From the NCBI GenBank assembly GCA_028277985.1, contig JANQFG010000047.1, positions 1-64,000 of the forward strand: a stretch of 64,000 nucleotides of DNA, read 5' to 3'. The translations under genes were made by a program, and so were the position numbers. This document shows, in pieces, positions 29,191 through 63,855 of the stretch. How positions within the stretch are numbered: position 1 is the first letter of the stretch; each line of letters opens with the position of its first letter. The notes beneath the pieces were generated by a model. That model did no database searches. It saw only the letters and a list, made by a program, of their open reading frames with translations, and was not told where the DNA came from. This stretch comes from a bacterium (lineage in GTDB: Bacteria > Desulfobacterota > DSWW01).

Positions 29191-29388
29191 CCTCTCCCCT
29201 CCTTGTGTCTCGAGTCTCCGTTGCATGCAACCCGCATGGGTCGGAAATCACTTCTCAGGGATCTACGAGAATACCCGATCACGCACCGTGGATCAAAAGG
29301 ACCTGCCCTTGTTTTCAGAACATTCGGGTGGATTGTAGAAACAGCAGATTGTCACCCTGCGCGACCGGCTGCATTCCTGCGCACAAGG

Positions 29389-35472: not shown

Positions 35473-35768
35473 ACTGGCGAAGAAGAACCGCATGCTGAGT
35501 ACTATCGCTGAAGAAAGGAACACCCTTGCTATGATCCGAAAGCTGCCCATGTTTTCTGCAGGATGCATCTTCCTGTGGCTCCCCAATCCAAAATTCAGTG
35601 CAACTACTGTGTGCGAGAGTTCGACTGTGTCAATGAAAGTCGACCGGGTATTACTAGTAAGGTTTTAGGAGGGGATTTCCAGAATTTATTTCATGCCCTA
35701 GTACACATGGCCTTCTTGTGCCCGAGAAGATGGATACGCTTGCTGATCTCAACGTCAGCAACCGTACC
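35473..35768 (+). pseudogene. nifB remnant with premature stop, lost cluster cysteine and internal deletion
   Basis: In frame, EEEPHAEYYR, a TGA (35509-35511), RKEHPCYDPKAAHVFCRMH, VAPQSKIQCNYC and VNESRPGITSKVL match the intact NifB at 59396-60382. The first Cys of the radical-SAM CxxxCxxC triad is Ser here. After SKVL the sequence jumps; STHGLLVPEKMDTLADLNVS (35700-35763) in another frame matches a segment 60 residues further on in NifB. It is therefore a dead, partly deleted copy directly behind promoter A. Confidence 0.85.
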
Positions 35769-47569: not shown

Positions 47570-47698
47570 AGACCTACTCCTGTTTAGCAAACGATTCTAT
47601 TGCACGCCGCGCACGATGTATGTGCAAACCACTCTTTCAGTTGTTTAGTCTTAGAATCCGACATTGATCTAATCAGAGCCGTGGGTTATGGAATCTGG

Positions 47699-48451
47699 CT
47701 AAATAGCCATTCGTGGACAGGAACCAGAATAAGCGCCGGCCAGGACCCGTATCGGGTGAATCATCCGATTGCCGCTCTGATCGGTGTATCGTGCAATCTG
47801 GATCTGGCATCCGGCGCAATCTGTGGAAATCAGTTGAGGGTTAACCTTTATTATCTCTTCAAACAACTGGGTGCCGACTTTCTCTGAAAGCTCGCTTCGC
47901 TGCCTGGATTCCAGGGCCCATGTGCCCCCCATGCCGCAGCAGCCGCGTTCGACATGTCGCAACTCGACTCCCGGAATCAATGAGAGCATATCCGCGGATG
48001 CGGTCGACAGCTGTTGAGATCGCAGGTGGCAAGGCGTGTGATAGGCTACACGGAGCGACATTCTCTTGAACTCGACGCTCAGTTCGCCTCTCTTATGGAG
48101 ATCCAGAAGGTAGGTGCTGATGAGGCTTGTCTTCTCGGCTACCAATCTTGCTGATTCGGTTTCCAGCAAGACGGGGAAGACCTCCTTAAGGGCATAGCCG
48201 CAAGTGGGGCAACTATAGACGATATCGAATCCCCGCGCCGCAAAGACCGCGAGTGTGTCGGTCAGCCTGGCCGCCCTCTTGCGGGCTTTAGCGAGGTCTC
48301 CGGAGCGCAAAAGGGGGAAACTGCAGCATATGAGCTCCGGCACTTCGACCTTGAAGCCGTTTTTCTCGAGCACATCGACGACGGCCGTTCCCGTCTCATG
48401 TTCGAGGTAATTCACAAAACAGCCATGATAGTATACTACGGTATTGTCCAT
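47699..48451 (-). CDS. CCG-domain Fe-S protein (LutA/HdrB-like)
   Basis: A 250-residue protein with two cysteine-rich CCG domains: YYHGCFVNYLEHETG and ELICCSFPLLRSGD in the first half, YHTPCHLRSQQ, ERGCCGMGGTW and STDCAGCQIQI in the second. Such domains bind noncubane 4Fe-4S clusters in HdrB, GlpC and LutA. Its ATG overlaps the 3' end of the upstream LutB-like gene by 16 bp; the two products should form one electron-transfer unit. Confidence 0.85.
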   Translation of the reverse strand: MDNTVVYYHGCFVNYLEHETGTAVVDVLEKNGFKVEVPELICCSFPLLRSGDLAKARKRAARLTDTLAVFAARGFDIVYSCPTCGYALKEVFPVLLETESARLVAEKTSLISTYLLDLHKRGELSVEFKRMSLRVAYHTPCHLRSQQLSTASADMLSLIPGVELRHVERGCCGMGGTWALESRQRSELSEKVGTQLFEEIIKVNPQLISTDCAGCQIQIARYTDQSGNRMIHPIRVLAGAYSGSCPRMAI

Positions 48452-49770
48452 TGTTTCAGCCCAACTTGTCTCTTCTTGCGGCCATGAACCCGCTGGCTGA
48501 AAGTTCGATGCCGAATATTGGGGACCCACGCGTCTCTTTGAAATCCGAACATCCTCTCCATCGTTGTCCTAACCAGTTTGTTTCCGAGAAAGAGGTTCGC
48601 CAGCGAACTGTAACGGCTGGCCGTGGACATAAAAAGCCAGCCGTCGTGGAGCATCCTGTTTCTCATCAGTCTAGGCCACTTTTTCAGCCCTCTCCCCCTC
48701 GCCACCGCTACCAGGCGGGCAATATCAATATCGAGGGGACATTTCAGGCGGCACATGCCGCACCCCGTGCACAGCTCGATCGATCCATTGCTCTCGGTCA
48801 GGAACGAATAGAGATATTGCCTGGGGTAACTGACGGAGTCGGGACTGAAATACTGATGGGTCGGACAATGCTCAGCGCAGGCCCGGCAACTGATGCAGGT
48901 GAGAAGCTCAGCGAAACAGTCGTCCGTAGCGATTTCGCTTCTCCCGTTGTCGAGGAGAATTATGTGGATTTCCGGAGGCAAATCCTCCCACGGAAGACTC
49001 TCAAGTTCCATGGCCTCCCGGGATTCGCCCGGGCACTTCAGGTCTATGATTACGCTCTCGAGGCCAAAAACGCCCATGGACTTTGTTTGAAAGAGGGCGT
49101 CCTCCCTGCTGCTGACGATCTTCTCGATCCCGACTATAAGAATCAATTGGCGTGCTTCCTGCAGCATTGCGCCGACGTTCGCGATGTGCTGCAAGAAATA
49201 GAGCGAACCGTCTTCGGCTGCTGCCGCGGTCACTCCCAACAAGGCCGTATAATCCTTCCGGCCCTCGGTCGTGCCTAGGTTTTCGACCGCAAATGACTCA
49301 TATGCTGATTCGGCAGGCACAAGCGGGAGCTGCCATTGATGGTTCAGTATCTTCTCGGCATCCTCTCCCCGCGGGTACCCGGCGAGGTACGTGTTGATCA
49401 ACCTGTAGCCGCTTCTCTGGAGCAGGGGCGTTAGTTCTCCAATGACACTCGCCCTGCTAACGGCCAGGATCTTGTTTTGCCCGCCAACTTTTTTTATGTA
49501 GGCCACCGCCTCAGATGCGTCATCGGCCGAGAATATCCCGGCTCCCTCATTCTCGGATGCCCGCCGGACAAACTGTTCTCTGAGGGAGTCCATGTCGACG
49601 AGGGCATCCTTTCTTATGCGTCTCAGCCGGGAAAGGGCCTGATCAAGGTCGAATTGCTCGACCCGTCCTGTCGCCAGGCTTGCATAATGCTGCTGTTTGT
49701 TCCTGGCGTCCAAGCCGACTACTACCACATTCGTACAGTCATGACCCCCATTTCCATCCCATCTACTCAT
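48436..49770 (-). CDS. LutB-like LUD-domain protein with two 4Fe-4S clusters
   Basis: A 444-residue protein. The N-terminal ~300 residues form a LUD (lactate-utilisation) domain including ESFAVENLGTTE, FLQHIANVGAMLQEARQLIL and LLDNGRSEIA; the C-terminus has CISCRACAEHCPTHQYF and CTGCGMCRLKCPLDID. This is the domain order of LutB and related oxidoreductases that pass electrons between a dehydrogenase and CCG partners. The start at 49770 is supported only by a weak GGTGAG. It lies directly downstream of the AOR-ferredoxin pair. Confidence 0.85.
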   Translation of the reverse strand: MSRWDGNGGHDCTNVVVVGLDARNKQQHYASLATGRVEQFDLDQALSRLRRIRKDALVDMDSLREQFVRRASENEGAGIFSADDASEAVAYIKKVGGQNKILAVSRASVIGELTPLLQRSGYRLINTYLAGYPRGEDAEKILNHQWQLPLVPAESAYESFAVENLGTTEGRKDYTALLGVTAAAAEDGSLYFLQHIANVGAMLQEARQLILIVGIEKIVSSREDALFQTKSMGVFGLESVIIDLKCPGESREAMELESLPWEDLPPEIHIILLDNGRSEIATDDCFAELLTCISCRACAEHCPTHQYFSPDSVSYPRQYLYSFLTESNGSIELCTGCGMCRLKCPLDIDIARLVAVARGRGLKKWPRLMRNRMLHDGWLFMSTASRYSSLANLFLGNKLVRTTMERMFGFQRDAWVPNIRHRTFSQRVHGRKKRQVGLKQWTIP

Positions 49771-49888
49771 CCGGCTCACCGAAGCACTTCTCCCCCTCAA
49801 CATTCGCCTTTGTTTCGATCACTATTGGTTCTCTCAAACCATCTCAGGAGCTTCCCAGGTTACAGCTAACCCATTCAATGATGAGAGC

Positions 49889-50392
49889 CTACTCTTTGTG
49901 TAATACTTCCTCTCTGCTCACAGAGTTGAGATGCCTTTCCAGGGCGGACCTGCCTAACCTCATGCTGACCTCCTCGCCCTCCAGGTATTGAACCGTGCCG
50001 GTGGGACAGAACTCGACGCATGCCGGATCGCCCTCGCAGTGGCTGCACGTGAACGAACGGCCAGCCAACCTGTCCACGGCAATCGCGCCGAACGGGCACG
50101 CATACACACAGGCGCTGCAAGCGATGCACTTGTCCTCGTCTATGCGTCTGGCTCCGGTAGCACGGTCGTCTGATATCGCACCCATCGGACAGACGGCCTT
50201 GCAGGCGGGTTCCCCGCACTTCATGCAGACGACGGGAAAGAACAGACTCTCTGTTTCTTCTCCGATCTTGACTATGCGTATCCTTGCCTTCACCGGGTTG
50301 CTCTCTCCGTGGTTGAAGATCGAGCAGGCGAGTTCGCATATGCGACACCCGGTGCATCTATCATAATCGATGGCTATCACACGGTCTGTCAC
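49889..50392 (-). CDS. Four-cluster ferredoxin, AOR partner
   Basis: A 167-residue electron-transfer protein of the HycB/BamC kind with four cysteine motifs: CTGCRICELACS, CMKCGEPACKAVCP, CIACSACVYACP and CSHCEGDPACVEFCP. Its ATG overlaps the AOR stop codon by 4 bp, so it is probably the AOR electron-transfer subunit. Confidence 0.92.
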   Translation of the reverse strand: MTDRVIAIDYDRCTGCRICELACSIFNHGESNPVKARIRIVKIGEETESLFFPVVCMKCGEPACKAVCPMGAISDDRATGARRIDEDKCIACSACVYACPFGAIAVDRLAGRSFTCSHCEGDPACVEFCPTGTVQYLEGEEVSMRLGRSALERHLNSVSREEVLHKE

Positions 50393-52374
50393 TTGGTTGC
50401 CTCCTCATTGATCTGTTTCTTCTGCCCATCTTCTTCTTTCACACCGGCGGGGGGCTTGCGTAGTCTTTTCAAGTCTTCGGCCACCGCGTCGAGCCCGAAT
50501 TCCTTGAGTTTCTCCTCGGTAGGCGTGCCGGTTTCAAGATCCCATCCTCTCAGGGTATAGTAATCGTCTTTCAACTTTTCCAGGGTCTCTAATTCCAGCA
50601 CCATCCCCTTCGCGCTCCCTTTTTCTGCCGGCTTGTGGAACCTCTGGGGAAATTTCTCGATCTCGCGTGTCAGGCCTTCCATGGACTCGTATGCCCGTTC
50701 CAGGTTCCTCACCTTGATGGCATATTCAAAAAGGTCTTCAGGGCTGATTTCCACGCCCAAGCCCGCAGAAAGGATCTTCGCATGGTACTCCGGAACATAC
50801 GGACATGTTATCCACGGAGTCGTGAATTTACAGGTGCTCAACATGTCGGTGATGACTACCATGTCTTCCCCATGAGCAAAAAGGGCCGCCTTTCCTCCGG
50901 TCTCGAGGGCGGCGGTCGCTTTTTCGACATCTATATCCGCACCCGTATACTTCGCATACTCCTCCAGCAACGCCTTGCGGATTTTCGCCTTCTCGGGTTC
51001 CATTGCTATCCACAATTCCGCCAAGGCGCTGAGAGACTTCATCGTTTCTCCTCGCGCACCCGCGACAAAGGCCAGAGCCGATGCCCGGAGAAGGGGCACC
51101 CAATCGGGCGACAGCTCCTCGGACATCGGCATCCCCTTCACCTGGTTGGCATATTCCACGGAACCGCGGCCGATCTTCTCAGCAGCGTGCAAGATGCCTT
51201 CCGCCAAAACATCGCCGATGCCCTCTCGGAATGTTATCTTGTCGAGCATGGAACGCATCGCTTGCGGACTGCCCCACTCCATAGCTATACCGTCGGTATC
51301 TTCCGCCCTGATGACGCCTTCTTCGTGCAGCTCCATCAACCATCTTATGTTTTCCGATACCGAGATGCAGTCAATTCCGTACCGCTGGCTCAAGATGCCG
51401 CACTCCAGAGATGCGGCGCTGTCAAAGCACTTAACGTTGTTGACCCATTCCGCGTATATATGGCAGGAAATGGCGCCGCTGCCGCCTTTGCCAAGCTCCT
51501 TCACCTGATAGCTGTCCATGCATTGTACGGGGCAGCCGAGGCACCCCGAACGCTTCGGCTTGAATTTCTCGTATATAGCGTGTGCCCGCGGCTGGGGCCC
51601 GCGGAACTCGCCTCCCCCTCCCTGCTCTTCTAATTGGTCTTGGAATTTCGATAAGCCCTCTTCGGAATACATCTTGAGCAACGGATCCTCTAGCAGCACC
51701 CGCTCAAGCTCGCCCGAAACCGCAAGGAATTCTACGGGGTCGGCAAGCTTGATACCCCCGGTTCCGCGCACTACAATGGCCTTCAGGTTCTTCGAACCCA
51801 TCACCGCTCCGGTGCCCGTGCGCCCGGCTCCGTGTCCAAGTCCATGCTGCACGGTCGCGAAGCGAACGAGGTTCTCACCGGCGGGGCCGATGCACGCCAC
51901 CTTCGCCTCGGGGTTTCCGACCTCCTTACGCAGAAGGTCCTGGGTTTCATAAGAATCCTTGCCCCATACGCCGGATGCGTCTCTAATCTCGACCTGATCA
52001 TTGTTGCACCAGATATAGACGGGTTTCTCGGCCTTGCCCTTCACCACGACGTGGTCGTAACCCGCGTACTTCAGCTCGCCGCCGAAGGACCCGCCGAAGT
52101 TCGTGCTCGCCAGCAAACCGGTTTCAGGTGACTTGGCCGTAACTTCGGTTCGGCCGGTAAAGACCGATGTTCCCCCCAGCGGGCCGACACCGAAGACGAG
52201 CACATTGCCGGGCGCGAGCGCTTCCACCCCTGGGGAGATATTGTCGTAGAGAAGTTTTATGTTGATACCCCGTCCTCCCAGGAAAGCCCTGGAATACGAG
52301 CTCGTCGGCTCGCTGGTGATCTTGCCCGAACTTAGATCAACCTTCAGAATGTTCCCTGCATATAGATTCGACAT
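50389..52374 (-). CDS. aor: Aldehyde:ferredoxin oxidoreductase family protein (tungstopterin)
   Basis: A 661-residue member of the tungsten AOR family. Markers: an N-terminal VDLSSGKI, FLGGRGIN, GPLGGTSVFTGRTEV and GLLASTNFGGSFGGELKYAGYDHVV, the pterin/cluster motif CLGCPVQCMDSY near residue 280-290, and a C-terminal Cys in STCKFT for the 4Fe-4S cluster. The family oxidises aldehydes to acids with ferredoxin, or the reverse; BamB of benzoyl-CoA reductase also belongs here. ATG 52374 follows AGGAG. It is downstream of the nitrogenase-like genes on the same strand. Confidence 0.93.
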   Translation of the reverse strand: MSNLYAGNILKVDLSSGKITSEPTSSYSRAFLGGRGINIKLLYDNISPGVEALAPGNVLVFGVGPLGGTSVFTGRTEVTAKSPETGLLASTNFGGSFGGELKYAGYDHVVVKGKAEKPVYIWCNNDQVEIRDASGVWGKDSYETQDLLRKEVGNPEAKVACIGPAGENLVRFATVQHGLGHGAGRTGTGAVMGSKNLKAIVVRGTGGIKLADPVEFLAVSGELERVLLEDPLLKMYSEEGLSKFQDQLEEQGGGGEFRGPQPRAHAIYEKFKPKRSGCLGCPVQCMDSYQVKELGKGGSGAISCHIYAEWVNNVKCFDSAASLECGILSQRYGIDCISVSENIRWLMELHEEGVIRAEDTDGIAMEWGSPQAMRSMLDKITFREGIGDVLAEGILHAAEKIGRGSVEYANQVKGMPMSEELSPDWVPLLRASALAFVAGARGETMKSLSALAELWIAMEPEKAKIRKALLEEYAKYTGADIDVEKATAALETGGKAALFAHGEDMVVITDMLSTCKFTTPWITCPYVPEYHAKILSAGLGVEISPEDLFEYAIKVRNLERAYESMEGLTREIEKFPQRFHKPAEKGSAKGMVLELETLEKLKDDYYTLRGWDLETGTPTEEKLKEFGLDAVAEDLKRLRKPPAGVKEEDGQKKQINEEATK

Positions 52375-52610
52375 TGCCACAACTCCTAATTCATGAAAGT
52401 CACGCAAAACTCGGAATACTCAATGGTCGTACATTCCACCTTTCATTGAAGCCTCTATTGAAGCCTTTCTGAAGCTTTCCTACTTAAACGGTGAGCTCTT
52501 TCATTTCGCATTTTTACCCTTTCTGTCAGGAGCTATACACGCCGACTTCACTCATTCCGCATAAACCTCTAATCGAATTCTCAAGTATCTTGGACGGCAA
52601 TCTCCTCAGA

Positions 52611-52910
52611 CTATTCTTCTAGGAGGGGCAAAGCCTGTGCTGCGACTTCCAGACCATAGTTGACGGATGCCACTGGCACTTTGCCACCCACGCCTTCTAT
52701 AATCTTCGCGTTGCCAACAGGTCCAAAGGCCCCACAGAGCTCAATGAGTTGTATACCCTCTTCTTCTACGAGCCTTTTTGCAGTACCTACTGCCTCATCA
52801 AGGTTTCTGTTGCCAACCATTGTGATGCTTACAGTCGCTGTTTCCAGCACTACCTTGTGCTTTTCAGCCTCCATGTCCGGCCAAACAACAAGATGGGCTA
52901 TTCTAAGCAT
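52611..52910 (-). CDS. DUF6506 family protein
   Basis: A 99-residue protein with IQLIELCGAFGPVGNAKIIE and KVPVASVNYG, characteristic of the small DUF6506 family of unknown function. It lies 48 bp after the nitrilase gene and shares its strand; the AGGAGG ribosome site is good. Confidence 0.7.
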   Translation of the reverse strand: MLRIAHLVVWPDMEAEKHKVVLETATVSITMVGNRNLDEAVGTAKRLVEEEGIQLIELCGAFGPVGNAKIIEGVGGKVPVASVNYGLEVAAQALPLLEE

Positions 52911-52958
52911 GATGAACTTACCTCCTTCTTCTTAGGGTTGTAACGTTAGCCTGAATAA

Positions 52959-54050
52959 TCATTGATCAGGTGGTGTGAGGATGCCGGCCTCAATGAGTTT
53001 CCCTGCTACCTCTATCTGCAGCTCTTTCCGTTCTTCAAGAAGATACGTTTTCTCCAAGTGTAGATTCTTGGGGTATTCAGGCCATCGTTCATAGATCTGT
53101 TTCCACAAGCTTGATCGCATGTTTGCCTGCATTAATGGAGCGGCCGAGAACACACGAAATTCTCGAAGCCTCTTCAAGTTTATTTCTGCAGGCACATAAC
53201 CCTCGTTCGGGTGACCGGCTTTGCGAACTATTTGCCCTAGATAATCTACGATCATTGACTGCCCACCAAAAAGGGTAACCGGTGAATCAACATCAGGATG
53301 GGTAAAGTACGGACCAGGGTTGGCAGCAACTACATAACAATGATTGTCGAAGGCTCTTGCTCTATTTATAGTTTCCCAGCATCCATCCATTACCTGCGGC
53401 TGTGGCCAAGACAGCCTCATTACAACCTCGGCTCCCATAAGGGAAAAAGCTCTGAACGTTTCGGGGAAATACGTCTCTGCACATATGGAAACAGCTAGAT
53501 TTCCTATTTCAGTTTTGACAACAGGATAACAAGCTTCCAGAGCATCGCCCACTTTCTCAGCCCATACATCCCAAATATCGTAGGGAGTTGTCATCCCTTC
53601 AATAATAGCGAGAGCGTTCTTTCGATGCTTCAGGATTACTTCTCCTTCAGGAGAAATAATGAATCCCATGTTAAAACACCTGTCGGGCATGATATCGGCC
53701 TCGACTACTTTTGCTTGACCGGCCAAATAGATATTGTATTCCTTTGCCTTCTCTGCTAATACATCGATCTCAGGACCGGGGATTGTGACGGCAACCTCTC
53801 TACAATATTTGACCTGTTCCATATCAGAATATTCGTCCCACATACCCTGAAGACATCCTTCTGTTAAGCTAACCAGCTTAATTTCCCCTAGGATCGGGCA
53901 AACATACATCGATTCATCGATCAACCTCGTTAGGTTATCCAGGTTCCTTCTAACATCATCCTTATTCCTACAACCATAGGTTCTCGGTTGCAGAGCAATC
54001 GCAATATAGGAATCATACGTCTTCTTGAGAGGTGCTGTGCTTTCACCCAT
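52959..54050 (-). CDS. Nitrilase-superfamily C-N hydrolase 1
   Basis: A 363-residue carbon-nitrogen hydrolase with the Glu-Lys-Cys triad: Glu64 (SLTEGCLQ), Lys144 (LKHRKN) and Cys190 (VSICAETYFPE). It is longer than the usual ~270-300 residues, like aliphatic amidases and formamidases, with a C-terminal extension after ~residue 300. The substrate should be an amide, nitrile or carbamoyl compound. It is 77 bp after the second nifH-like gene, in the same presumed operon. Confidence 0.88.
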   Translation of the reverse strand: MGESTAPLKKTYDSYIAIALQPRTYGCRNKDDVRRNLDNLTRLIDESMYVCPILGEIKLVSLTEGCLQGMWDEYSDMEQVKYCREVAVTIPGPEIDVLAEKAKEYNIYLAGQAKVVEADIMPDRCFNMGFIISPEGEVILKHRKNALAIIEGMTTPYDIWDVWAEKVGDALEACYPVVKTEIGNLAVSICAETYFPETFRAFSLMGAEVVMRLSWPQPQVMDGCWETINRARAFDNHCYVVAANPGPYFTHPDVDSPVTLFGGQSMIVDYLGQIVRKAGHPNEGYVPAEINLKRLREFRVFSAAPLMQANMRSSLWKQIYERWPEYPKNLHLEKTYLLEERKELQIEVAGKLIEAGILTPPDQ

Positions 54051-54127
54051 TAGAAAACCTCCTTCGTAAGACCAACAGATCCGGTTTAGACATTATTCTT
54101 TTCGACTCAGATCTTCGTGCCCATCCC

Positions 54128-55075
54128 CTACACCTGCCGATGCATTACTTCACCCTCACCAACCACTGCTGCTTCGCTCGTGAAGTGCCTTACTATCTCC
54201 TTAATTTCCTTCAGCTTGATAGGTTTCGGAACGAAAATGTCCTCATTATTCAATATCTTTTTCGTCATTGATTTATAAATATCTGCCATATCAGAATCAG
54301 GGAATGCCTCAAGCAGACACTGTCCTTTCAACTCCCCTTTCTGTATCAGCTGTGAGCGAGGTATGTGTGCAACGACGGGAACCCCCATTTTTTCCGCTAC
54401 CGCTTCCACGATTTGCTCTTCATTTGGGATTCCCCTCTGATTATTGATGAGGCCTGCCACCCCCACGTCCTGCCCCATCTCTCGTACATTGTTTACTGCT
54501 TTTGCCAAGTTATTCATTTGAAACAGCGTAAGAATCTCACCGCATGTTACTATATACACTTCGCGCGCAAATCCTGAACGTAGAGGCTGAGCAAACCCAC
54601 CGCAAACAGTATCTCCCAATACGTCCAGCAGAAGAAACGATACATCATATTCATCAAACAGCTTGAATCTATCTAACGTTGTTAATGAAAGGTTGACGCC
54701 TCGCCCCGCACATCCCATTCCAGGCTTTGGCCCTCCACTCTCCACGCACAAAACATCTGCAAAACCGTCATGAACACAGCTCTTAAGCAGGTCCTCAGTG
54801 ATTGCGGTCACCCCACTGTCTATCATCGAATGCATAAGTGTTGGCTTCATTCCATGACACAACAGCGCAATGGAATCCCTTTTCGGGTCGCAGCCCACCT
54901 GCATCACCTTTTCACCTAACAAGGCTGCGCTAGCACTGATATTGGCTGAAGTCGTTGACTTGCCGATCCCCCCCTTTCCGTAAATCGCAATGCACTTTCT
55001 TTCTTTTGTATCTTTACCAGCTTCTTTTCTTTTCTTCGGAAGAAAATTTGGAAACTCCTTCTCCAGATCAAACAT
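54128..55075 (-). CDS. NifH-like nitrogenase reductase 1
   Basis: An ATP-dependent Fe protein of 315 residues with a ~27-residue N-terminal extension. It has the Walker A loop YGKGGIGKST (33-41), GCDPKRDS, switch elements DVLGDTVCGGFAQPLR, and both 4Fe-4S cysteines: Cys122 (GGPKPGMGCAGRG) and Cys158. Arg125, the ADP-ribosylation site of NifH, is kept. NifH delivers electrons one at a time to its catalytic partner while hydrolysing ATP. It follows reductase 2 by 28 bp. It is not a close match to MinD/ParA, BchL or BchX by eye. Confidence 0.92.
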   Translation of the reverse strand: MFDLEKEFPNFLPKKRKEAGKDTKERKCIAIYGKGGIGKSTTSANISASAALLGEKVMQVGCDPKRDSIALLCHGMKPTLMHSMIDSGVTAITEDLLKSCVHDGFADVLCVESGGPKPGMGCAGRGVNLSLTTLDRFKLFDEYDVSFLLLDVLGDTVCGGFAQPLRSGFAREVYIVTCGEILTLFQMNNLAKAVNNVREMGQDVGVAGLINNQRGIPNEEQIVEAVAEKMGVPVVAHIPRSQLIQKGELKGQCLLEAFPDSDMADIYKSMTKKILNNEDIFVPKPIKLKEIKEIVRHFTSEAAVVGEGEVMHRQV

Positions 55076-55103
55076 GTTATTGCCTCCTTCCTTAAGTGCT
55101 CAG

Positions 55104-55967
55104 TCAAGCAATTTGGTAGTCCTTTTCCTGGTATTCTCTCAACATATCTACCAAGTCCTCGAGTTCCACCGGTGTCGGCACACAGAAATCCGACTTCTCT
55201 AGTTGCATAATGTTCTTGCCCAAATCCCTGTAACACCGACCCTGCTCTGAATCAGGCCTCTTTTCCAGAACTGTTCCTCCCTCACCCTCAGCAGCCTGAA
55301 CAATGCTATCCCTCGGTATATAAGAAAGGATCGGTAAGCCAAGGGTCTTCCCGAACTGTTCCAGAACTTCCTCTTCCATGGGAACACCCCGCATATTGCC
55401 TATAATTCCACCAATACGAATATCTGATCCCTCTTCTATCGCTGCCTTTATAGCAATGCAGATATTGTTGGCGGAATACAGGGACATCAGCTCTCCACTG
55501 CTTACTATATAGAGTTCTTTTGCAAATCCGGCTCGAATCGGTTGCGCAAAACCACCACAGACAACATCACCAATAACATCGAACAGCACAACATTCGCTC
55601 TCGTCCATTCAAACAAGTTGTATTCCGACAAGAGCTCTATTGCTATCTTGACTCCTTTCCCCGCACACCCTTTGGCTGGCTCAGGGCCTCCGGACTCAGC
55701 GCACAGGATTCCCTTATACCCCTCGCAGATACACTCCTTCACCACGTCCACACTCTGACCGTTATCACGGGTGTGCTCTAGAATGTTCAAGTCCAGCACT
55801 TCACCTCCGTTTAGATAGCTCGTCGAATCTATCTTGGGTGAACAGCCTATCTGGAACACCTTGTTGTCCATTTCTGAGAACGTAATCGCCAAATTCGAAC
55901 AGACGGTAGATTTTCCAATCCCTCCCTTTCCATAGAAGGCCATCGTTCGGGTTTCCTTTTCAGTCAT
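55104..55967 (-). CDS. NifH-like nitrogenase reductase 2, divergent
   Basis: 287 residues with Walker A FYGKGGIGKST (12-21), Cys101 (GGPEPAKGCAGKG) and Cys137 (DVIGDVVCGGF). Two positions normally fixed in NifH are changed: Asp39 in GCDPK is Ser43 (GCSPKIDS), and Arg100 is Lys104. The adjacent second reductase has the usual residues, so the two are specialised, either as alternative homodimers or as a heterodimer. ATG 55967 has AAGGAG seven bases upstream. It follows the beta-subunit gene by 60 bp. Confidence 0.92.
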   Translation of the reverse strand: MTEKETRTMAFYGKGGIGKSTVCSNLAITFSEMDNKVFQIGCSPKIDSTSYLNGGEVLDLNILEHTRDNGQSVDVVKECICEGYKGILCAESGGPEPAKGCAGKGVKIAIELLSEYNLFEWTRANVVLFDVIGDVVCGGFAQPIRAGFAKELYIVSSGELMSLYSANNICIAIKAAIEEGSDIRIGGIIGNMRGVPMEEEVLEQFGKTLGLPILSYIPRDSIVQAAEGEGGTVLEKRPDSEQGRCYRDLGKNIMQLEKSDFCVPTPVELEDLVDMLREYQEKDYQIA

Positions 55968-56027
55968 GACCTGTCTCCTTCCATACTGCAGTATGAGATT
56001 CATATCGATTGTGTAGAAGGTTACCGA

Positions 56028-57434
56028 CTATCCCCACAGACCACCGCCGGCGGCAGCCGTGAGAAAATCCTCGGCGAATGTGAGCCCCCCTCGATAGCCA
56101 AAGTAGTTCCGGTCGATAATTACCCTCTCCACAATAGGATAGAATGCGACCATCGAAGCGAGCCTATTCTTCATGGCATATGCCTTGTCAACGCTTCTGC
56201 CAAGTATTATATTGGGCTGCACCTCATCCAATTTCTCCTGGAGCTCAGGCAAGTTTGGGTCATACAACACCGAGACCTCACCTTCTGGCAAAACGTCCTT
56301 CCACGGCACCAATTCCTTCAACATTTCGTCAACGGCTTCCTTCGTGCCCTCTCCGTACGAGGTGAAAGCAATCAGACTGGGACAGAAACCAAGCGTTCCG
56401 GTCATGAAGCGGAGAATTCCCAGTACATAGTCGCAATCACCTATTAGGGCATATGACTGACTCGTAAAGATCGACCAGAGCTCCGCTATACCCTCCAACT
56501 GTCGATAGAACGTTCTTTCCTCCTCATCCAACTTCTTCTTCACTTCATCCATATCCAGGGACAGTCTTTTCGCAATCTCCGTAAACACTTCTCCACTAGC
56601 CTCCGCCCCTATTGGAGTCCCCTTGTTCAGAGTTACGTAGGGAGTACCGTATTTTTCCTCAAGAATAGCAGCTGCCTCTACCCCAATGTGGTCCGAAATC
56701 ACTACATTCAGGGCTACTTCGGCCATTCTCTTGATCCCCTCAAGGTCGCATTCGCCCGGGAGAATCACATTAATGCTTATCCCCAATAACTCTAGTATTC
56801 GCTTTACTTCGGCCATTTCGCCCCGCCAAAAAGGCTTGAAATGAGGCCAGCCTCCGAGTACGTTAACGGTGTTCTTCAGCTTCTTCTTTGGTGCTTCGAC
56901 TACTTCCTTACAGATCTTGTTGAGTACCAAATTACTGCCATATGAACTTCTGCCCTTAAAACCTCCTACGTCTGCAAACAGGGTGGTCTCGATCCCTGCG
57001 GCGTCAAGTTTAGGCTTAGCCCTCCGGATAGCTCTTTCGAGATCATCTCCGATGATATCTCCCGTACATCCCGTCATCACGAATGCCGCCTCAACACCGT
57101 CATAAATATCCGGGATGGCTTCCAAAGTTGTGTAAATCTTTTCCTCGCCGCCCATGATGACATCTTTTTCCAGCAAATTAGTTGATGGAGTTATATACCC
57201 GCCGTACCGGGAAGCACCCTGATTTCCACTACAACTAACAACAGGGTTTACGAATACAAAATTGCATCCTTTGCTTGCGTGCACGACTGGTATCATGCCA
57301 TCTATATAGTGAGTTATCGTCAATGCACCTTGCAGCGCACATATATCCGAACAAGGATAAACGAGCACCTGTCTGCTAAGAGAATTCTCTTCTCTCTCAC
57401 CTTCTTGCACTTTGGCACTTGTTGCCTTTTCCAT
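56028..57434 (-). CDS. Nitrogenase-like beta (NifK-type) subunit
   Basis: A 468-residue protein of the NifD/K/E/N superfamily. Cys32 (CALQGA), Cys57 (VVHASKGC) and Cys123 (TGCTGDIIGDDL) align with NifK Cys70, Cys95 and Cys153, which bind the P-cluster. It also has STNLLEKDVIMGGEEKI and the C-terminal FGYRGGLTFAEDFL as in NifK. It should form an alpha2beta2 complex with the upstream product. It is 40 bp downstream of the alpha gene; ATG 57434 has AAAGGA upstream. It is shorter than NifK (about 520), mostly at the N-terminus. Confidence 0.88.
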   Translation of the reverse strand: MEKATSAKVQEGEREENSLSRQVLVYPCSDICALQGALTITHYIDGMIPVVHASKGCNFVFVNPVVSCSGNQGASRYGGYITPSTNLLEKDVIMGGEEKIYTTLEAIPDIYDGVEAAFVMTGCTGDIIGDDLERAIRRAKPKLDAAGIETTLFADVGGFKGRSSYGSNLVLNKICKEVVEAPKKKLKNTVNVLGGWPHFKPFWRGEMAEVKRILELLGISINVILPGECDLEGIKRMAEVALNVVISDHIGVEAAAILEEKYGTPYVTLNKGTPIGAEASGEVFTEIAKRLSLDMDEVKKKLDEEERTFYRQLEGIAELWSIFTSQSYALIGDCDYVLGILRFMTGTLGFCPSLIAFTSYGEGTKEAVDEMLKELVPWKDVLPEGEVSVLYDPNLPELQEKLDEVQPNIILGRSVDKAYAMKNRLASMVAFYPIVERVIIDRNYFGYRGGLTFAEDFLTAAAGGGLWG

Positions 57435-57474
57435 AACTATCGTCCTTTCTCCCGATTCTGATTGGTAGCTACCC

Positions 57475-58968
57475 TTAGTATGAGACATTACACTTCGGTG
57501 TTGTTTCGTAAAGATTCTTCTTGTTACCCAGGAAGTCCTTTCTGAAAGTGCGTTCCGAGTGTTTCCATAGCTTCCGCGCAAATTGAGGATAGTCCAGCAG
57601 CATGACCATCTCCTTTGCAAGATTGTACGCACCGGTAAAGAGACTATGTGCCCCCCTGCTTGGATTGGTCTGGATGGGCATTGCCGGGACTCCCATCTTC
57701 AGGGCCAGCTCCATCGATGCGCCGTCTCCAAAATATAGATCGGGTTTGTACTGCTCAATGGCGAGTGGTATATCGTGCGCATTCGTATCGCCAATCACAA
57801 CAGGTACGTCAGGACCAGCAACATCAACAAACCCTTTCAGTATAGGAAGACTCAATTTGTCCCAATGATAGAAATGCAGTGCCACAACCTCCATCCCCAA
57901 ATCAGCGCATAGTCTGGCGATAGCAGGCCCTCTCGCGTGACTGGCGGTTACATAGACTTTCTTCCCTTTCAGCCTTTCCTTCAGGGGCTTCAGCCTCTTC
58001 ATCAAAAGCTCTTCCTCTTCTCCAATAATCTCTTCCGCAACATCCTTCCCGATTCCGGTCAGTTTCGCAGCCGCTCGCAACCAATCTCCCCCAACCTCGA
58101 TGCCAATATTTTGGGTAACCACTTCCTCATAGGGAGTTCCGAATCTGTCTTGCATGTAAGCACACCACGGAAACCCAAAAGTCACGCAATACATCAAGTT
58201 CCCTGCGGCCTCCGGCGCTTTCCTCACGTCTTCTATCGTCGCATTACGAGGATAGAAACGAACCCTTATCCCCAGTCTTGCTATTACCCGCCTCATTTCC
58301 TCCAACTCAACAGCCATACAGGTCCATGGAACGGGAATGTTAAGTAGATCCTGCTCTTTTTTCTGCGGCTCTTCCATTACCTCCGAGACTAGAGCATAGG
58401 ACCCAAAGTCAAAGGCCGAGGCCCAACATTGGGAACGAAAACCACCACAATGCAATGGCAGCATTTTCGCGTTTACTTGATTCTCAATATCGCTGATTAC
58501 CCCTTCAATGTCGTCACCCACCGTCCCTGCCGCGCACGTCGAAAAAATGGGCATCAGTTTGGGTTTATACGTCTTATCCACCCACAAGAGCACCTCTCTC
58601 AGTCGCTCCTCTCCCCCGTACACAACTTCATTCGTAGTCAAATCAGTAGAAACATACTTCAGACCTTCGGGTGCAAGTCCCTCATATGCCTGGCTACTCG
58701 CCGCAATCACATTAAGAAATGTCAACCACTGCGGACATCCCGCGGGCGAGTGGTACACCATGACCGTGTCCCGAAGACCGAAAAAATATTGCGCAATCTC
58801 ATTTCCAGTACATGCACTTCCGCACTGAAATAGTTTTTCACAAATTTCCAGGTCTTCCTTCTCTGTCCGCTCATATAGCTTTCCTACAGTGCCCGAAAAG
58901 GCCACAACACTTCCTAACGAAGCTTCTCTGGGCAACGGTCCTCCAAAGTCCTTTATCTGTCTTTTCAT
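57475..58968 (-). CDS. Nitrogenase-like alpha (NifD-type) subunit
   Basis: A 497-residue NifD/NifE-like protein. Cys49 (FQCGSACTG), Cys78 (YHSPAGC) and Cys145 (STCAAGTVGDDI) align with the NifD P-cluster ligands Cys62, Cys88 and Cys154. Cys261 in NLMYCVTFG aligns with NLVHCYRSM of NifD, whose Cys275 binds FeMo-co. His441 lies in RGAHSLFTGAYN near, but not in register with, NifD His442. STDLTTNEVVYGGEERL is a superfamily block. It is the first gene of the operon behind promoter C; AGGGAG upstream of the ATG. The substrate is unknown. Confidence 0.88.
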   Translation of the reverse strand: MKRQIKDFGGPLPREASLGSVVAFSGTVGKLYERTEKEDLEICEKLFQCGSACTGNEIAQYFFGLRDTVMVYHSPAGCPQWLTFLNVIAASSQAYEGLAPEGLKYVSTDLTTNEVVYGGEERLREVLLWVDKTYKPKLMPIFSTCAAGTVGDDIEGVISDIENQVNAKMLPLHCGGFRSQCWASAFDFGSYALVSEVMEEPQKKEQDLLNIPVPWTCMAVELEEMRRVIARLGIRVRFYPRNATIEDVRKAPEAAGNLMYCVTFGFPWCAYMQDRFGTPYEEVVTQNIGIEVGGDWLRAAAKLTGIGKDVAEEIIGEEEELLMKRLKPLKERLKGKKVYVTASHARGPAIARLCADLGMEVVALHFYHWDKLSLPILKGFVDVAGPDVPVVIGDTNAHDIPLAIEQYKPDLYFGDGASMELALKMGVPAMPIQTNPSRGAHSLFTGAYNLAKEMVMLLDYPQFARKLWKHSERTFRKDFLGNKKNLYETTPKCNVSY

Positions 58969-59084
58969 CTTCTTTTCTCCCTAGTTCAACAACACGTAAT
59001 ATTGGCCGCTAGCCTCCACTTTATTCCCGTTGTTCTATACAGTACCTTCCTCATAAATCATTCCGCGATTCCTGCAATAATTGA
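58969..59084 (-). other. Leader of the nitrogenase-like operon
   Basis: About 115 bp between operator C and the alpha-subunit start. No riboswitch or small gene is seen. The adjoining stretch 59130-59395, between the -35 box and the nifB stop, is also without a credible gene. Confidence 0.5.
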
Positions 59085-59129
59085 CCTGACCAGTCAGTCC
59101 TTTTTGGTCTATTTCGATTCACTTGTCAA
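59085..59129 (-). promoter_or_regulatory. Promoter C with TetR-type operator, nitrogenase-like operon
   Basis: On the minus strand, TTGACA (59124-59129), a 17-bp spacer and CAAAAA (59101-59106), then two bases and ACTGACTGGTCAGG (59085-59098), one mismatch from the palindrome. The -10 is poor; the spacing matches promoters A and B. Confidence 0.75.
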
Positions 59130-59395
59130 CCCTTTTCTGATTTTCCGGTACTCTCAAGTAGCCTTTCTCTTCTTTCTTCGTGGATTTATGCTTCCCTCCT
59201 TCCTGCTCTTTGCACAGAGCTTCTCCTCTTCATATTCCAGTACGTTCGCAGTCTTATATCACCCGCATCCCGGAATCTTCCGACCATTCTCGGCGAACCT
59301 CCCGGATGCTTCGACAAATTAGTAGAGTACAGTCGTTTTTGCCTCATACTCGTGGACCGAATATTCAATATTCACTTGTATTCCCGAAATCAGAA

Positions 59396-60382
59396 TCAAC
59401 CCCTTTGCTCGCCCTCCACAGTATTCCTACAGACGGCGGACCTCGTTCTCTGCAATGAATCCACCATTTCCTCCTGTTTCTCCAGGGACGATGAGCAACC
59501 CTTTTGCTCTGATTGGTAGAATTGCGAGGAGAGATCTTTTCCCAACTTTCCAATTGCATCCGCCCTGCACTGCCGACAGTGGCGCATTTGTCTTATTTCT
59601 CTCTCGCATCTCTTACGAACCGCACCCAGCACCTTGGACGAGGGAGGGGCGACATGAGAAAACCTGTGCTGGGATATCAAGGGGATGGTGTTCTGGACAT
59701 AGGCTCCTAATTCTTTCGCCGTTCTGGCTACATTAACTATATCCTCCCCGTTAACCGTGGGAATCAGGACTGAATTCACCTTCACAACAATCCCAGCTTT
59801 CACCGCGCTATGTATACCATTCACTTGGTTTCTTAGGAGCTGTTCCGCACCATCCCTTCCTTTGAGCATTACTCCCTTATGATCAACATATGAATAGATT
59901 TCCGCTCCTATTTCAGGATCCGTTGTATTCATTGTTACTGTTAGGTTGCTCACGTTGAGATCAACAAGCGTATCCATCTTCTCGGGCAGAAGAAGGCCGT
60001 TTGTGCTAAGGCATAGAATCAAATCTGGAAATTCCTTCTTAATCATCGAGAGGGCGGCAAAGGTCTCATCATTGAAAAGCGGCTCTCCGGGGCCTGCGAC
60101 TCCAACTACTTTTATATTGGGAAGCTTTTCAATTACCTCTCTAACCTTAGCAATAGCCTCTTCAGGACTTAAGACCTTACTGGTAATACCCGGCCGACTT
60201 TCATTGACACAGTCGAATTCCCGCACACAGTAGTTGCACTGAATATTGCATTGGGGAGCCACAGCAAGATGCATCCTGCAGAAAATATGCGCTGCTTTCG
60301 GATCAAAACATGGGTGTTCCTTTATTCTCCGATAGTACTCACCATGCGGCTCTTCTTTGCTTGACAATTTACAGGTATTCAT
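59396..60382 (-). CDS. nifB: NifB-type radical SAM cofactor maturase
   Basis: A 328-residue enzyme that, in nitrogenases, fuses two 4Fe-4S clusters and inserts carbide to make NifB-co. The RS cluster is CxxxCxxC at Cys45, Cys49, Cys52 (APQCNIQCNYC). Additional ligands typical of NifB are present: HPCF (Cys25), FDCVNESRPG (Cys58) and RHCRQCRADAIG (Cys269, Cys272). GVAGPGEPL binds SAM. It has only the NifB core, without a NifX-like domain, plus an odd ~40-residue tail. The start has GAGGA upstream. Genuine NifB implies the neighbouring alpha/beta protein carries an Fe-S-C cofactor. Confidence 0.93.
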   Translation of the reverse strand: MNTCKLSSKEEPHGEYYRRIKEHPCFDPKAAHIFCRMHLAVAPQCNIQCNYCVREFDCVNESRPGITSKVLSPEEAIAKVREVIEKLPNIKVVGVAGPGEPLFNDETFAALSMIKKEFPDLILCLSTNGLLLPEKMDTLVDLNVSNLTVTMNTTDPEIGAEIYSYVDHKGVMLKGRDGAEQLLRNQVNGIHSAVKAGIVVKVNSVLIPTVNGEDIVNVARTAKELGAYVQNTIPLISQHRFSHVAPPSSKVLGAVRKRCEREIRQMRHCRQCRADAIGKLGKDLSSQFYQSEQKGCSSSLEKQEEMVDSLQRTRSAVCRNTVEGEQRG

Positions 60383-60752: not shown

Positions 60753-61610
60753 CTACAAATGTCTGAGTTCACTGAGCGCGTCATAGAGCTCCGTTCTGCG
60801 CTTGTTGAAATAATCGGTTTCATTAGCCGCCCTTTTAACAAGTTCCAAATCAATGTCGGCAACCAACACAGCTTCTCTTGTTCCTGCCTCCGCTAAGACG
60901 TTCCCATAGGGATCCACTATAATGCTCCCTCCGAAAAAGTTCATGGAACCGAACATTCCAATGCAATTCGCAATCGCAACGTAAACGCAATTTTCCATTG
61001 CCCTCGCCCGGGCATATACGCGCTGAGATTCTTCCCATGGCCGCATATTGGCCGTACAGACTACAAGCAATTGTGCACCCATAAGACTAAGGACCCGAGC
61101 AACTTCCGGAAATTCCAGATCGTAGCAAATCAGGAATCCCAACAGGCCCGCAGGCCCTTGGCGTACGCTGAACTCTTCTCCCCCTGCAAACACTTTCCCT
61201 TCTGTTCCCCACAGGTGTGTCTTGCTATAGGAAGAGACGACACCGCGATCGGGAAGAATGTGAAGGGCCGAATTATAGACCGAGCCGTTTACGAATGTAG
61301 GAATGCCAACGATGAGCTGGGCCTCAAGATCTTTTGATAGTTTTTCAAGTCTTTGGACAGACACGCCCTTATCGGAACCTTTTACGCTTTCGGCCTGTCT
61401 GGCCATTTCTACAACCGACTCTCCCTCTGCGTATCCTGTCACACAACATTCAGGAAAAATGACCAACCGTGCGCCTCCCAGCACCGCTCGTTGTGCCAGG
61501 TCCTCCATTCTTCCCAAATTGCTTTGTTTGTCGAGGAAAACAGGCTCGAACTGGCATACAGCGATCCTATAGTCTCCACCGATCTCTCGATGTATTTCGG
61601 GCCTTTTCAT
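60753..61610 (-). CDS. Nitrilase-superfamily C-N hydrolase 2
   Basis: A 285-residue carbon-nitrogen hydrolase of standard length. Triad: Glu54 (VIFPECCVTG), Lys130 (SYSKTHLW) and Cys162 (FLICYDLEFPE). It is not a near-duplicate of hydrolase 1. Members cleave amides, carbamoyl groups or nitriles; N-carbamoyl compounds are plausible next to a dihydropyrimidine-dehydrogenase-like enzyme. It is 19 bp downstream of that gene and ends 44 bp before operator D. Confidence 0.9.
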   Translation of the reverse strand: MKRPEIHREIGGDYRIAVCQFEPVFLDKQSNLGRMEDLAQRAVLGGARLVIFPECCVTGYAEGESVVEMARQAESVKGSDKGVSVQRLEKLSKDLEAQLIVGIPTFVNGSVYNSALHILPDRGVVSSYSKTHLWGTEGKVFAGGEEFSVRQGPAGLLGFLICYDLEFPEVARVLSLMGAQLLVVCTANMRPWEESQRVYARARAMENCVYVAIANCIGMFGSMNFFGGSIIVDPYGNVLAEAGTREAVLVADIDLELVKRAANETDYFNKRRTELYDALSELRHL

Positions 61611-61629: not shown

Positions 61630-62793
61630 CTATGCCATTTGCATAGTGATGGCCTCGGCTGGACATAAGTGACTGCAAATGCAGCATCCATAACAAAGCT
61701 CCTTATTCACTTCTGCTGCTTCACCGTGCATTTCAATCGCATTACAATGAGCCGGGACCAAGCACTCCTCACATCCCACACACTCATCCTCATTCACAAC
61801 AGCGCAGCAATCCGCAAAGTCTATTTCGTCGTTTTCTTTAATATATTCATTCGCTAATCCCCTGAAATCAGCGATGGAAGAGAAGTTGTTTTCAGTCATA
61901 TACTCCTCGATTGCTTGACGCATTTCATCGAACATACTCCACCCTTTGACACAAGGGCCGGATGATGAGGCGATGACCGTAGCGCCATAGAGAATCGCCT
62001 CGATTGCTGATTTTCCATCCCAGATTCCCCCGGAGCAGATTATCGGCAGCGTCGTCTCTCGATAGAATTCACTTACTATTCTGTAAATAATCGGTCTCAG
62101 GTACGGCCCTGTAATGAATGCATCCCGAGCCTGAAACTCAATGCTCTGAAACGGATGATAAGGCGGTTTGTCCGTGAACAAACCCGGATAGCCGGCGATC
62201 CCATCAGAGATTTGGATCGCTGCAAGACCGGCATTCTCTATTGCTTTGACAATCTCTGCCGTATCTACGGCAAAACAGGTTTCCGGTTGAAGCTTTAAGA
62301 TAACGGGTATACTTACCGAAGAGCATACCCGGGTCATAATGCTCTCGATCATCTCTATTTCATTCCCGGCAAATTCCTGAATAAAGGTGAAGAACGTTAC
62401 CAGCGCGTCTGCACCCGCTTCTTCCAATTGCGTGGCAAGCGAAACCCATTGCTCACTTTCCCCTGTAAGACCTTTGAAATTTCCAAATACCGGGATACTC
62501 AGCTTTTCCTTTGCATTTCGTAGGAATTCTACCCCGTCTTCTATATAACTGAATTCCTTGCCCCACGATCCCAGCACCCAGCTGAATGCCCTCGACTCTT
62601 GATCCCAAAATGTTCGTTGATAACTCTTGGTGTTTGGATACCTACTTGGAATAGTCGCCTTGGTATCAACTGCGCCCAAGCCTAGCTCCTGTGCTTTCTG
62701 TAAATTCTCCACGTTGATGGTCAGGGGGCCTGCGGCTAGGAAGACCGGGCACTTCAATGGAAGCTTGCCTATTTGAACGGTAAGGTCTTTCAT
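61630..62793 (-). CDS. Dihydropyrimidine/dihydroorotate dehydrogenase-like flavoprotein with 4Fe-4S domain
   Basis: A 387-residue protein. The N-terminal TIM barrel resembles PreA/PydA and DHODH: CPVFLAAGPLT, VFGNFKGL, PVILKLQPE, IICSGGIWDG and GATVIASSS for FMN binding. The C-terminus has two ferredoxin motifs (CVGCEECLVPAHC, CYGCCICSHLCP). The NxSCPH-type catalytic Cys block of dihydropyrimidine dehydrogenase is not visible; the aligned region reads ADALVTFFTF, so the substrate is probably not a normal pyrimidine. It is 97 bp after the ureohydrolase gene. Confidence 0.83.
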   Translation of the reverse strand: MKDLTVQIGKLPLKCPVFLAAGPLTINVENLQKAQELGLGAVDTKATIPSRYPNTKSYQRTFWDQESRAFSWVLGSWGKEFSYIEDGVEFLRNAKEKLSIPVFGNFKGLTGESEQWVSLATQLEEAGADALVTFFTFIQEFAGNEIEMIESIMTRVCSSVSIPVILKLQPETCFAVDTAEIVKAIENAGLAAIQISDGIAGYPGLFTDKPPYHPFQSIEFQARDAFITGPYLRPIIYRIVSEFYRETTLPIICSGGIWDGKSAIEAILYGATVIASSSGPCVKGWSMFDEMRQAIEEYMTENNFSSIADFRGLANEYIKENDEIDFADCCAVVNEDECVGCEECLVPAHCNAIEMHGEAAEVNKELCYGCCICSHLCPAEAITMQMA

Positions 62794-62889: not shown

Positions 62890-63855
62890 TCACTCCATTT
62901 TCGTGGCCTTAATGCGGGACGCAAGCAGGTCCAGAATGATACGACATCCCATTCGAGCCGTAATACCTCCAAGATCGTACTGCGGAGCGACTTCCGCAAT
63001 ATCAAACGCCGTATATCCAATTTCTCCCACAATTCTTAATGCTTGCAACAGTTCTCTTCCGGTGAGGCCCCCAGGCTCTGGACAGCAGGTACCCGGTACG
63101 TATGAAGCGTCAAGGCAGTCTAAATCGACAGTCAGATAGACTCCCGTTGTGCCATCCCAAGCTCTCTCCATGGCTTCCCGAGTTACATCCTTTATGCCGC
63201 GGTCCGTCACTTCATCCATCGTATACATACGCACACCGTGCTCCTCGACCCATTGCCGCTCTTCACGAGGATTGGCCGGTCCGTGCATCCCAATAATGAC
63301 CGTATTCTGTGAAGAGTACTTTTCATTTTCCAATGTACGCGTTATAGGAGCAGCGTGGGTAAGGGTCTCGCCGCCCATCTCGGGGGCTGTGTCAATGTGC
63401 GTATCAAACATTACAAGGCCTAATGGTCCCTCTGAGGCGCGGGCAAGCGCCGCTGCCCCCGGTATAGTGGTTGAATGCTCACCTCCGACAACGATAGGCA
63501 CAGCACCCGCTTTGTAGATCTCCTCGAGATCGCTTTCGACGGCAGCAAACGTCTTAGCCGCACTCCCAGGTATTGCTCTGACATCTCCACAATCGACGAG
63601 TGTTATGTATTCTGAAATATCAAGGTCAAAATCAAAATGGTAAGGAAGGTATTGAGAGGATGCGTCCCTTACCGCCCGAGGGCCGTGAGAAGATCCTGGC
63701 CGCGTAAGAGTCGTATGATCAAATGGAAATCCATAAATTGCATGCGTCGCACCGACTGCCTTCAGATCTTCTGCTTTAGGTTTTACAATTGGCGCCTGCA
63801 GAAAACTGGCTATTCCGGCATGCAATACCCCTGTCCATGTAAAACTTTCGCCCAT
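62890..63855 (-). CDS. Arginase/agmatinase-family ureohydrolase
   Basis: A 321-residue dinuclear-metal hydrolase that releases urea or a related product from guanidino or amidino compounds. Metal ligands: GGEHS, FDTHIDTAPE (DxHxD) and VDLDCLDASYVPG (DxDxxD). GFPFDHTTLTRPGSSHGPRAVR is the substrate-region block of agmatinase-type members. Which substrate it prefers (agmatine, guanidinobutyrate, guanidine) is open. ATG 63855 has AAGGAG upstream. It is the first visible gene of a run leading to hydrolase 2. Confidence 0.9.
   Translation of the reverse strand: MGESFTWTGVLHAGIASFLQAPIVKPKAEDLKAVGATHAIYGFPFDHTTLTRPGSSHGPRAVRDASSQYLPYHFDFDLDISEYITLVDCGDVRAIPGSAAKTFAAVESDLEEIYKAGAVPIVVGGEHSTTIPGAAALARASEGPLGLVMFDTHIDTAPEMGGETLTHAAPITRTLENEKYSSQNTVIIGMHGPANPREERQWVEEHGVRMYTMDEVTDRGIKDVTREAMERAWDGTTGVYLTVDLDCLDASYVPGTCCPEPGGLTGRELLQALRIVGEIGYTAFDIAEVAPQYDLGGITARMGCRIILDLLASRIKATKME

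Follow-up and report, generated by a model that had tools for sequence, protein, structure and literature searches.

A nitrogenase-like gene cluster with NifB and two divergent Fe proteins, candidate for a separate deep branch of group IV

What might a nitrogenase-like enzyme reduce when its genes stand beside nifB and among genes for carbon-nitrogen hydrolases? The question is raised by contig JANQFG010000047.1 of assembly GCA_028277985.1, from a bacterium of the Desulfobacterota (DSWW01). Its positions 1 to 64,000 constitute the window, the whole stretch of DNA analysed here, to which all coordinates refer and in which every gene discussed lies on the minus strand. The answer that we favour, with about an even chance of being right, is that the D-type (alpha) and K-type (beta) proteins form a group-IV reductase on its own deep branch, which would carry a P-cluster and a NifB-made [Fe8S9C]-type cluster and would use ATP to drive the reduction of an organic nitrogen compound, not of N2. 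The core genes are:

59396..60382, minus strand: NifB-type radical SAM enzyme of 328 amino acids without a NifX-like tail (TIGR01290, 365.9 bits; cut-off 343.65)
57475..58968, minus strand: alpha (D-type), 497 amino acids (PF00148, Oxidored_nitro, E 3e-67)
56028..57434, minus strand: beta (K-type), 468 amino acids (PF00148, Oxidored_nitro, E 1e-69)
55104..56003, minus strand: NifH1, a divergent Fe protein (PF00142, E 4e-82)
54128..55075, minus strand: NifH2, a second divergent Fe protein (PF00142, E 1e-81)

Profile searches and the list of open reading frames place alpha and beta where a first, sequence-only reading of this DNA had put them, with nifB nearby, and the Oxidored_nitro scores exclude a chance match. 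A sequence artefact was also considered and rejected, as P0002, a relative 65% identical to alpha, has an intact frame. The radical SAM B, H, D and K genes thus stand together, as in group-IV systems, with H doubled.

The group-IV families named in the literature are Cfb, Mar, Isr and Nfa (PMC12552129, PMC11423573, PMC9147875). For each catalytic subunit the top sequence match is the methylthio-alkane reductase (Mar), which is also the best fold match of alpha; the best PDB sequence match of beta is MarK with 172.8 bits, the next reaching 70.2 (the predicted model of beta, with a predicted local distance difference test score of 64.2, was not used). These matches, together with a B-H-D-K gene set like that of Mar and Isr as described in PMC11423573, are what would be expected if the enzyme were a divergent, Mar-like sulfur-compound reductase cleaving C-S bonds, its nitrogen-related neighbours being incidental. 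We regard this as unlikely, in part because the trees disagree with it: both D and K group with the group-IV rows and away from NifDK and NifEN (support 99/97 for D, 100/96 for K), and trees that force them to join the Mar rows are rejected by the approximately unbiased (AU) test (p 0.016 for D with nine Mar-side rows, 0.007 for K with three). The window clade thus appears, on sequence grounds, as a separate deep branch of the group-IV nitrogenase-like proteins. The careful tree was built without L005_a739, L066_1904_a, L066_3409_b, P0063, P0009, P0011 and P0064, dropped for branch length, near-identity or unclear type; a tree of all 72 rows places the window rows in the same way (L066_1904_a falls outside group IV there and is not counted in it). 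The D test tree omits the same seven rows and the K test tree P0063 and L066_3409_b; the trees cover neither the E. proavitum NfaD nor Anf/Vnf sequences.

The cluster ligands were followed through alignment columns, using 40 alpha-type sequences, of which 27 belong to group IV by the 72-row tree, and 31 K/N-type rows. The columns of alpha Cys53, Cys78 and Cys145 hold Cys in all 40 alpha-type rows. The sequence-only reading was right about Cys78 and Cys145 as P-cluster ligands but not about Cys49, which is Thr in P0002; the ligand column is that of Cys53. In beta, Cys32, Cys57 and Cys123 are borne out as ligand positions: all three are Cys in 29 of the 31 rows, and the two exceptions are both NifN rows, each without two of the three. 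The six cysteines, three in each subunit, are arranged as in P-cluster proteins and not as in NifEN, and alpha and beta are predicted to carry a P-cluster. Alpha Cys261, correctly recognised in the sequence-only reading as the cofactor cysteine, falls in the column of NifD Cys275 and MarD Cys270, which is Cys in 27/27 group-IV rows. The window proteins share the group-IV position, the P-cluster cysteines and the Cys275 equivalent with other group-IV proteins (Chlorohelix, Treponema, Paenibacillus and clostridial), but these are 24-31% identical to alpha and the window clade sits on its own branch. The Nfa subgroup IV-A of the literature belongs among those other proteins; its type sequence was not part of the comparison.

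Membership in the remaining families was weighed on the same residues and on curated models. With Isr of Rhodobacter capsulatus (IsrBHDK) the locus shares the B-H-D-K operon layout of a group-IV enzyme. PMC11423573, however, describes IsrD as lacking the equivalents of Cys62, Cys154 and Cys275, and IsrB as resembling NifB only in the radical SAM motif; alpha has all three cysteines and the window NifB scores above its cut-off, so that an Isr identity was rejected. Alpha stays far below the cut-offs of the BchB (73.2 of 490.35 bits), BchN (29.2 of 419.95) and CfbD (41.1 of 268.4) models, as does beta with BchB (96.7 of 490.35), BchZ (40.6 of 529) and BchY (18.5 of 425.15). Compared with Mo-nitrogenase (NifHDK with NifENB), alpha and beta have in common the fold, the P-cluster cysteines, the Cys275 position, a NifB and Arg346 in the column that we take to be that of NifD Arg359, but alpha is only ~19% identical in the structural alignment and has Gln433, Trp182 and Phe186 in place of His442, Gln191 and His195. 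Its scores against the nitrogenase models are 132.2 of 653.55 bits (NifD), 76.5 of 823.1 (VnfD) and 68.2 of 873.8 (AnfD).

The outer ligand site is where the window clade departs from Mar. The second cluster ligand of Mar is His429, which lies beside Arg428 on a loop (Loop I) missing from nitrogenases, and the Arg-His pair has been put forward as a possible Mar hallmark (PMC12552129). While alpha and beta have the six P-cluster cysteines and the cofactor cysteine of Mar, the Arg428-His429 site of MarD (Rhodospirillum rubrum) is Gly414-Asp415 in alpha, which again tells against a Mar-like C-S reductase. Of the 27 group-IV alpha rows, nine have Arg-His at this site, all of them from the Mar-side clade, 11 have Gly-His, three Cys-Pro and four Gly-Asp, these last being the window clade; in the four-row alignment of that clade Asp415 is invariant (4/4). 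The sequence-only reading had doubted that alpha keeps His442, and rightly: the column holds Gln433, and Gln in 4/4 clade members, whereas it is a gap in the 20 Arg-His and Gly-His rows, Mar-side rows included, His in 6/6 NifD-type rows and Asn in 5/5 NifE. On the side of a C-S reductase, Trp182 and Phe186 of alpha match MarD Trp195 and Phe199 near the cluster. We suggest that Asp415 or Gln433 binds the cluster. A branch outside Mar with the same cysteines and another outer ligand would test the need for a His ligand, a question made directly testable by the four signatures in four group-IV lineages; it would also test the ancestral cluster content of the group and the reach of the cluster chemistry beyond N2 and C-S bonds. 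As a separate observation, a Chlorohelix plasmid (NZ_CP128401.1; L055, L074) has two nitrogenase-like clusters, with alpha Cys-Pro in one and Arg-His in the other, and genes for O-acetylhomoserine sulfhydrylase and an ABC transporter between and beside them.

The operon also holds two tandem and very divergent nifH genes, which the sequence-only reading had left out; Mar has one. Over 279 aligned residues NifH1 and NifH2 share 39% identity, or 37% in the multiple alignment. Their highest identities to any of 12 other Fe proteins are 46% and 41%, respectively; those proteins share 41-88% among themselves. The P-loop lysines and both cluster cysteines are present in each. NifH2 keeps every motif checked, while NifH1 has Ser in the column that we take to be Asp39 in NifH numbering (Asp in all 12 other rows without a gap at that position, NifH2 included) and Lys in the presumed Arg100 column (Arg in the other 13 rows). 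In the NifH tree the two are long branches that meet, with a program warning, so that we make no claim on their sisterhood. The pair may form a NifH1/NifH2 heterodimer, or possibly two separate homodimers. A tandem divergent pair would put to the test whether the reductase must always be a homodimer.

The full NifB announced by the sequence-only reading exceeds its curated cut-off; its PDB matches are 6y1x (348 bits; presumably a NifB structure) and the named NifB structures 7bi7 and 7jmb (250 bits). The whole assembly (8.85 Mb; a draft in 291 contigs, with a completeness of 95.69% and a contamination of 7.85%) has one intact nifB and one fragment, and six matches to NifX-type carriers, none of them on the window contig. 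Its four PF00148 matches are alpha, beta and a further pair on contig C79, none near the NifE or NifEN cut-offs, and its best match to the homocitrate synthase NifV reaches 316.7 bits (cut-off 462.9). The nifE, nifN and nifV genes not seen in the window are therefore not found above cut-off in the draft either, and no canonical NifDK was found that would point to a normal nif operon elsewhere. As the assembly is a draft, incomplete and contaminated, such genes may have escaped detection; it is also roughly double the length of two genomes from the same genus (4.7 and 3.8 Mb), which makes binning errors possible. The C79 set (L005:1-4196) comprises a NifH-NifD-type fusion of 739 amino acids (with a 738-residue relative, P0058), a K-type protein cut short by the contig end and a radical SAM gene; it adjoins genes resembling, by eye, those of cobalamin synthesis and uptake.

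We propose by analogy with Mar that NifB would make an [Fe8S9C]-type cluster which would be inserted into alpha directly, without NifEN maturation. Electrons would pass, with ATP, from the Fe proteins, perhaps as an unusual NifH1/NifH2 heterodimer, to the P-cluster and on to the [Fe8S9C]-type cluster, held by Cys261 and, on its opposite side, by Asp415 (or Gln433), which would take over the role of the Mar histidine. Mar carries a P-cluster and [Fe8S9C] without homocitrate (PMC12552129), a precedent for the direct use of a NifB cluster, and is described there as the only nitrogenase-like enzyme sharing the large nitrogenase clusters. The catalytic relative with a directly used NifB-derived cofactor that the sequence-only reading had imagined thus keeps its NifB link and its ligands but not its isolation, Mar being a precedent within group IV.

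The nature of the substrate is suggested, with low confidence, by the gene neighbourhood alone:

62890..63855, minus strand: ureohydrolase (PF00491, E 6e-76; PDB 8snf 203.9 bits, agmatinase 121 bits)
61630..62793, minus strand: PreA/dihydroorotate-dehydrogenase-like flavoprotein with an Fe-S domain (PreA 132.7 bits, cut-off 335)
60753..61610, minus strand: carbon-nitrogen hydrolase 2, amidase/beta-ureidopropionase type (PF00795, 184 bits; PDB amidases 110 bits)
52959..54050, minus strand: carbon-nitrogen hydrolase 1, weakly formamidase/nitrilase-like (PF00795, E 1e-34; PDB matches of at most 61 bits)
52611..52910, minus strand: DUF6506 protein (PF20116, 88 bits)
50389..52407, minus strand: tungsten aldehyde:ferredoxin oxidoreductase (AOR) family, possible partner (AFOR_N/AFOR_C)
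49889..50392, minus strand: polyferredoxin adjoining AOR, possible partner
48436..49803, minus strand: LutB/LdhH-like Fe-S protein, possible partner (scores far under cut-offs)
47699..48529, minus strand: GlpC/LutA-like cysteine-rich protein, possible partner (210.8 bits, cut-off 278)
46295..47590, minus strand: 4-aminobutyrate (GABA) transaminase, possible partner (TIGR00700, 556.9 bits, cut-off 506.65)

Transcription would run from the ureohydrolase through the PreA-like protein, carbon-nitrogen hydrolase 2, NifB, alpha, beta, NifH1, NifH2 and carbon-nitrogen hydrolase 1 to DUF6506, and then through AOR, the polyferredoxin, the LutB-like and GlpC/LutA-like proteins and the GABA transaminase to a short-chain dehydrogenase/reductase and an acyl-CoA synthetase. 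Gaps of 24 to 77 bases from alpha to DUF6506 suggest one operon over that part. Immediately beyond the window, the contig continues with genes for FdhD and a glutamate dehydrogenase (L068). The carbon-nitrogen hydrolases, the ureohydrolase, whose closest solved structures are metformin hydrolase subunits, the GABA transaminase, the PreA-like protein and the nearby glutamate dehydrogenase favour an organic nitrogen substrate, which may be a guanidino, amide or nitrile compound whose product would pass to the neighbouring carbon-nitrogen hydrolases, ureohydrolase and GABA transaminase. No O-acetylhomoserine sulfhydrylase, ABC transporter or other sulfur-salvage gene was found among the scanned window and flank proteins (window 1-25 kb unscanned), another point against a C-S reductase. 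A bolder version of the organic nitrogen reading would make this a new class, a nitrogen counterpart of Mar with a Cys/Asp-ligated [Fe8S9C], a heterodimeric NifH1-NifH2 and reductive C-N cleavage of guanidino or amide compounds; taken as a whole it is unlikely. The PreA/dihydroorotate-dehydrogenase-like protein, carbon-nitrogen hydrolases, GABA transaminase, AOR and acyl-CoA synthetase, all co-directional on one strand, would also suit a reductase acting on an N-heterocycle or other larger substrate, with the PreA-like protein, carbon-nitrogen hydrolase and AOR completing ring catabolism. We find this doubtful: to our knowledge, [Fe8S9C]-type enzymes act on small substrates, and the ring-reducing relatives BchNB and CfbD are described in PMC12552129 as lacking the large clusters.

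How well is this neighbourhood conserved? For three relatives in the databases, 65, 40 and 41% identical to alpha, no context could be read; no close relative with context was found in a single-sequence scan of genome contigs, and the four-row alignment brought up three distant loci (23-24%); viral contigs yielded none. A match at E 1e-44 or better is present in 10 of the 395 phylum genomes, not counting the window's own. Context of up to 20 kb per locus was fetched for nine of the ten (not G268), at one or two loci each, and 17 window proteins were compared with the open reading frames of 15 other loci (E 1e-5). Besides NifH, NifB, alpha and beta, there were two matches outside the window contig: a carbon-nitrogen hydrolase (27%) in G339, ~8 kb from the alpha relative, and an acyl-CoA synthetase (25%) in G240. 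Carbon-nitrogen hydrolase, AOR and LutAB neighbours were thus absent from the stretches read in the nine genomes, save for that in G339; the link to these genes drawn by the sequence-only reading is present in the window but rests on one locus. DUF6506 occurs in 4/118 genomes, the window's own included; two of its contexts, inspected by eye from open reading frame starts, held nothing recognisable as nitrogenase-like or carbon-nitrogen hydrolase, and its name was not found in the literature searched. Nor did the literature searches, which did not cover subscription papers and preprints, turn up a group-IV system that has such neighbours or a second NifH, in line with the sequence-only reading, which had not recognised the combination as described.

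Several observations weigh against an organic nitrogen reductase on a separate branch. (i) Alpha and beta do not nest in the Nif or Mar rows, as the sequence-only reading requires, but the AU test does not reject a union of the window clade with NifD/E or NifK/N (p 0.058 and 0.099). (ii) The group-IV rows outside the window clade do not quite form one clade in the D test tree; forced together, they lie 1.8 log units lower (p 0.30). (iii) The Asp415 column is clean for only 3/4 window-clade rows in the wide alignment, in which P0003 of the window clade and the Cys-Pro row P0006 are shifted by one column, with the same letters beside. (iv) Mar, the closest solved protein, acts on C-S bonds. (v) Close relatives whose neighbours could be read were not found, and the substrate idea depends on one locus. 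(vi) The AOR has 25 matches in the assembly, so that it is not specific to the locus and its position may mean little. These AOR matches include the protein itself, and some are pieces of one gene; the assembly is rich in relatives of tungsten oxidoreductases.

The first of these points, that joining to NifD/E is not rejected at 0.05, would also suit a NifEN-like cofactor scaffold or an unusual nitrogenase proper, as would the NifE model, second best for alpha (137.7 bits) and best for beta (103.4 bits). Such scores are far below the cut-offs (NifE 505.1, NifD 653.55), and beta, with the three cysteines of which NifN lacks two, is not the N-type partner without P-cluster cysteines of a NifEN scaffold, an identity that was rejected on this ground. 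A nitrogenase is opposed by the residues at the His442, Gln191 and His195 positions and by the want of a NifV above cut-off in the assembly, and a scaffold by the lack there of a canonical NifDK to serve, the C79 D-type part keeping three P-cluster-type cysteines without the cofactor cysteine. We consider either role improbable.

The locus may have a foreign origin. The guanine-cytosine (GC) content is 0.58-0.63 over window 1-28 kb and 0.47-0.48 over 52-64 kb; it drops within the 4-kb bin containing tRNA-Thr (29554-29628). At 13 other loci of the assembly it is 56.6-62.3%. The low-GC segment, window 28000-64000, starts near the tRNA-Thr, was probably acquired horizontally and probably runs past the window end; Pfam detected no integrase or transposase in seven open reading frames located around 25.8-36.9 kb or in that of the pseudogene. 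Within the segment lies:

35477..35763, plus strand: decayed second nifB fragment, matching the intact nifB at 89.5% over 191 bp and at 85.9% over 99 bp, its middle lost

The low GC, this pseudogene and the lack of an alpha homologue at E 1e-20 in the same-genus genomes G001 and G002 might be taken to indicate a horizontally acquired island in decay, its genes released from selection. That is very improbable, as the frames of NifB and of alpha through carbon-nitrogen hydrolase 1 are open over their full length, and the cluster-ligand cysteines checked in alpha, beta and the two NifH proteins are all kept.

Two TetR-type regulators (33952-34548 and 37160-37756), ~90% identical in DNA and inverted, flank the nifB fragment. 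Paralogous ferredoxin-domain proteins of ~350-364 amino acids are encoded by three tandem copies (25819-29226) and a related one (35850-36902), with 64-73% DNA identity, and a similar-looking protein is found at L068:7416-8504.

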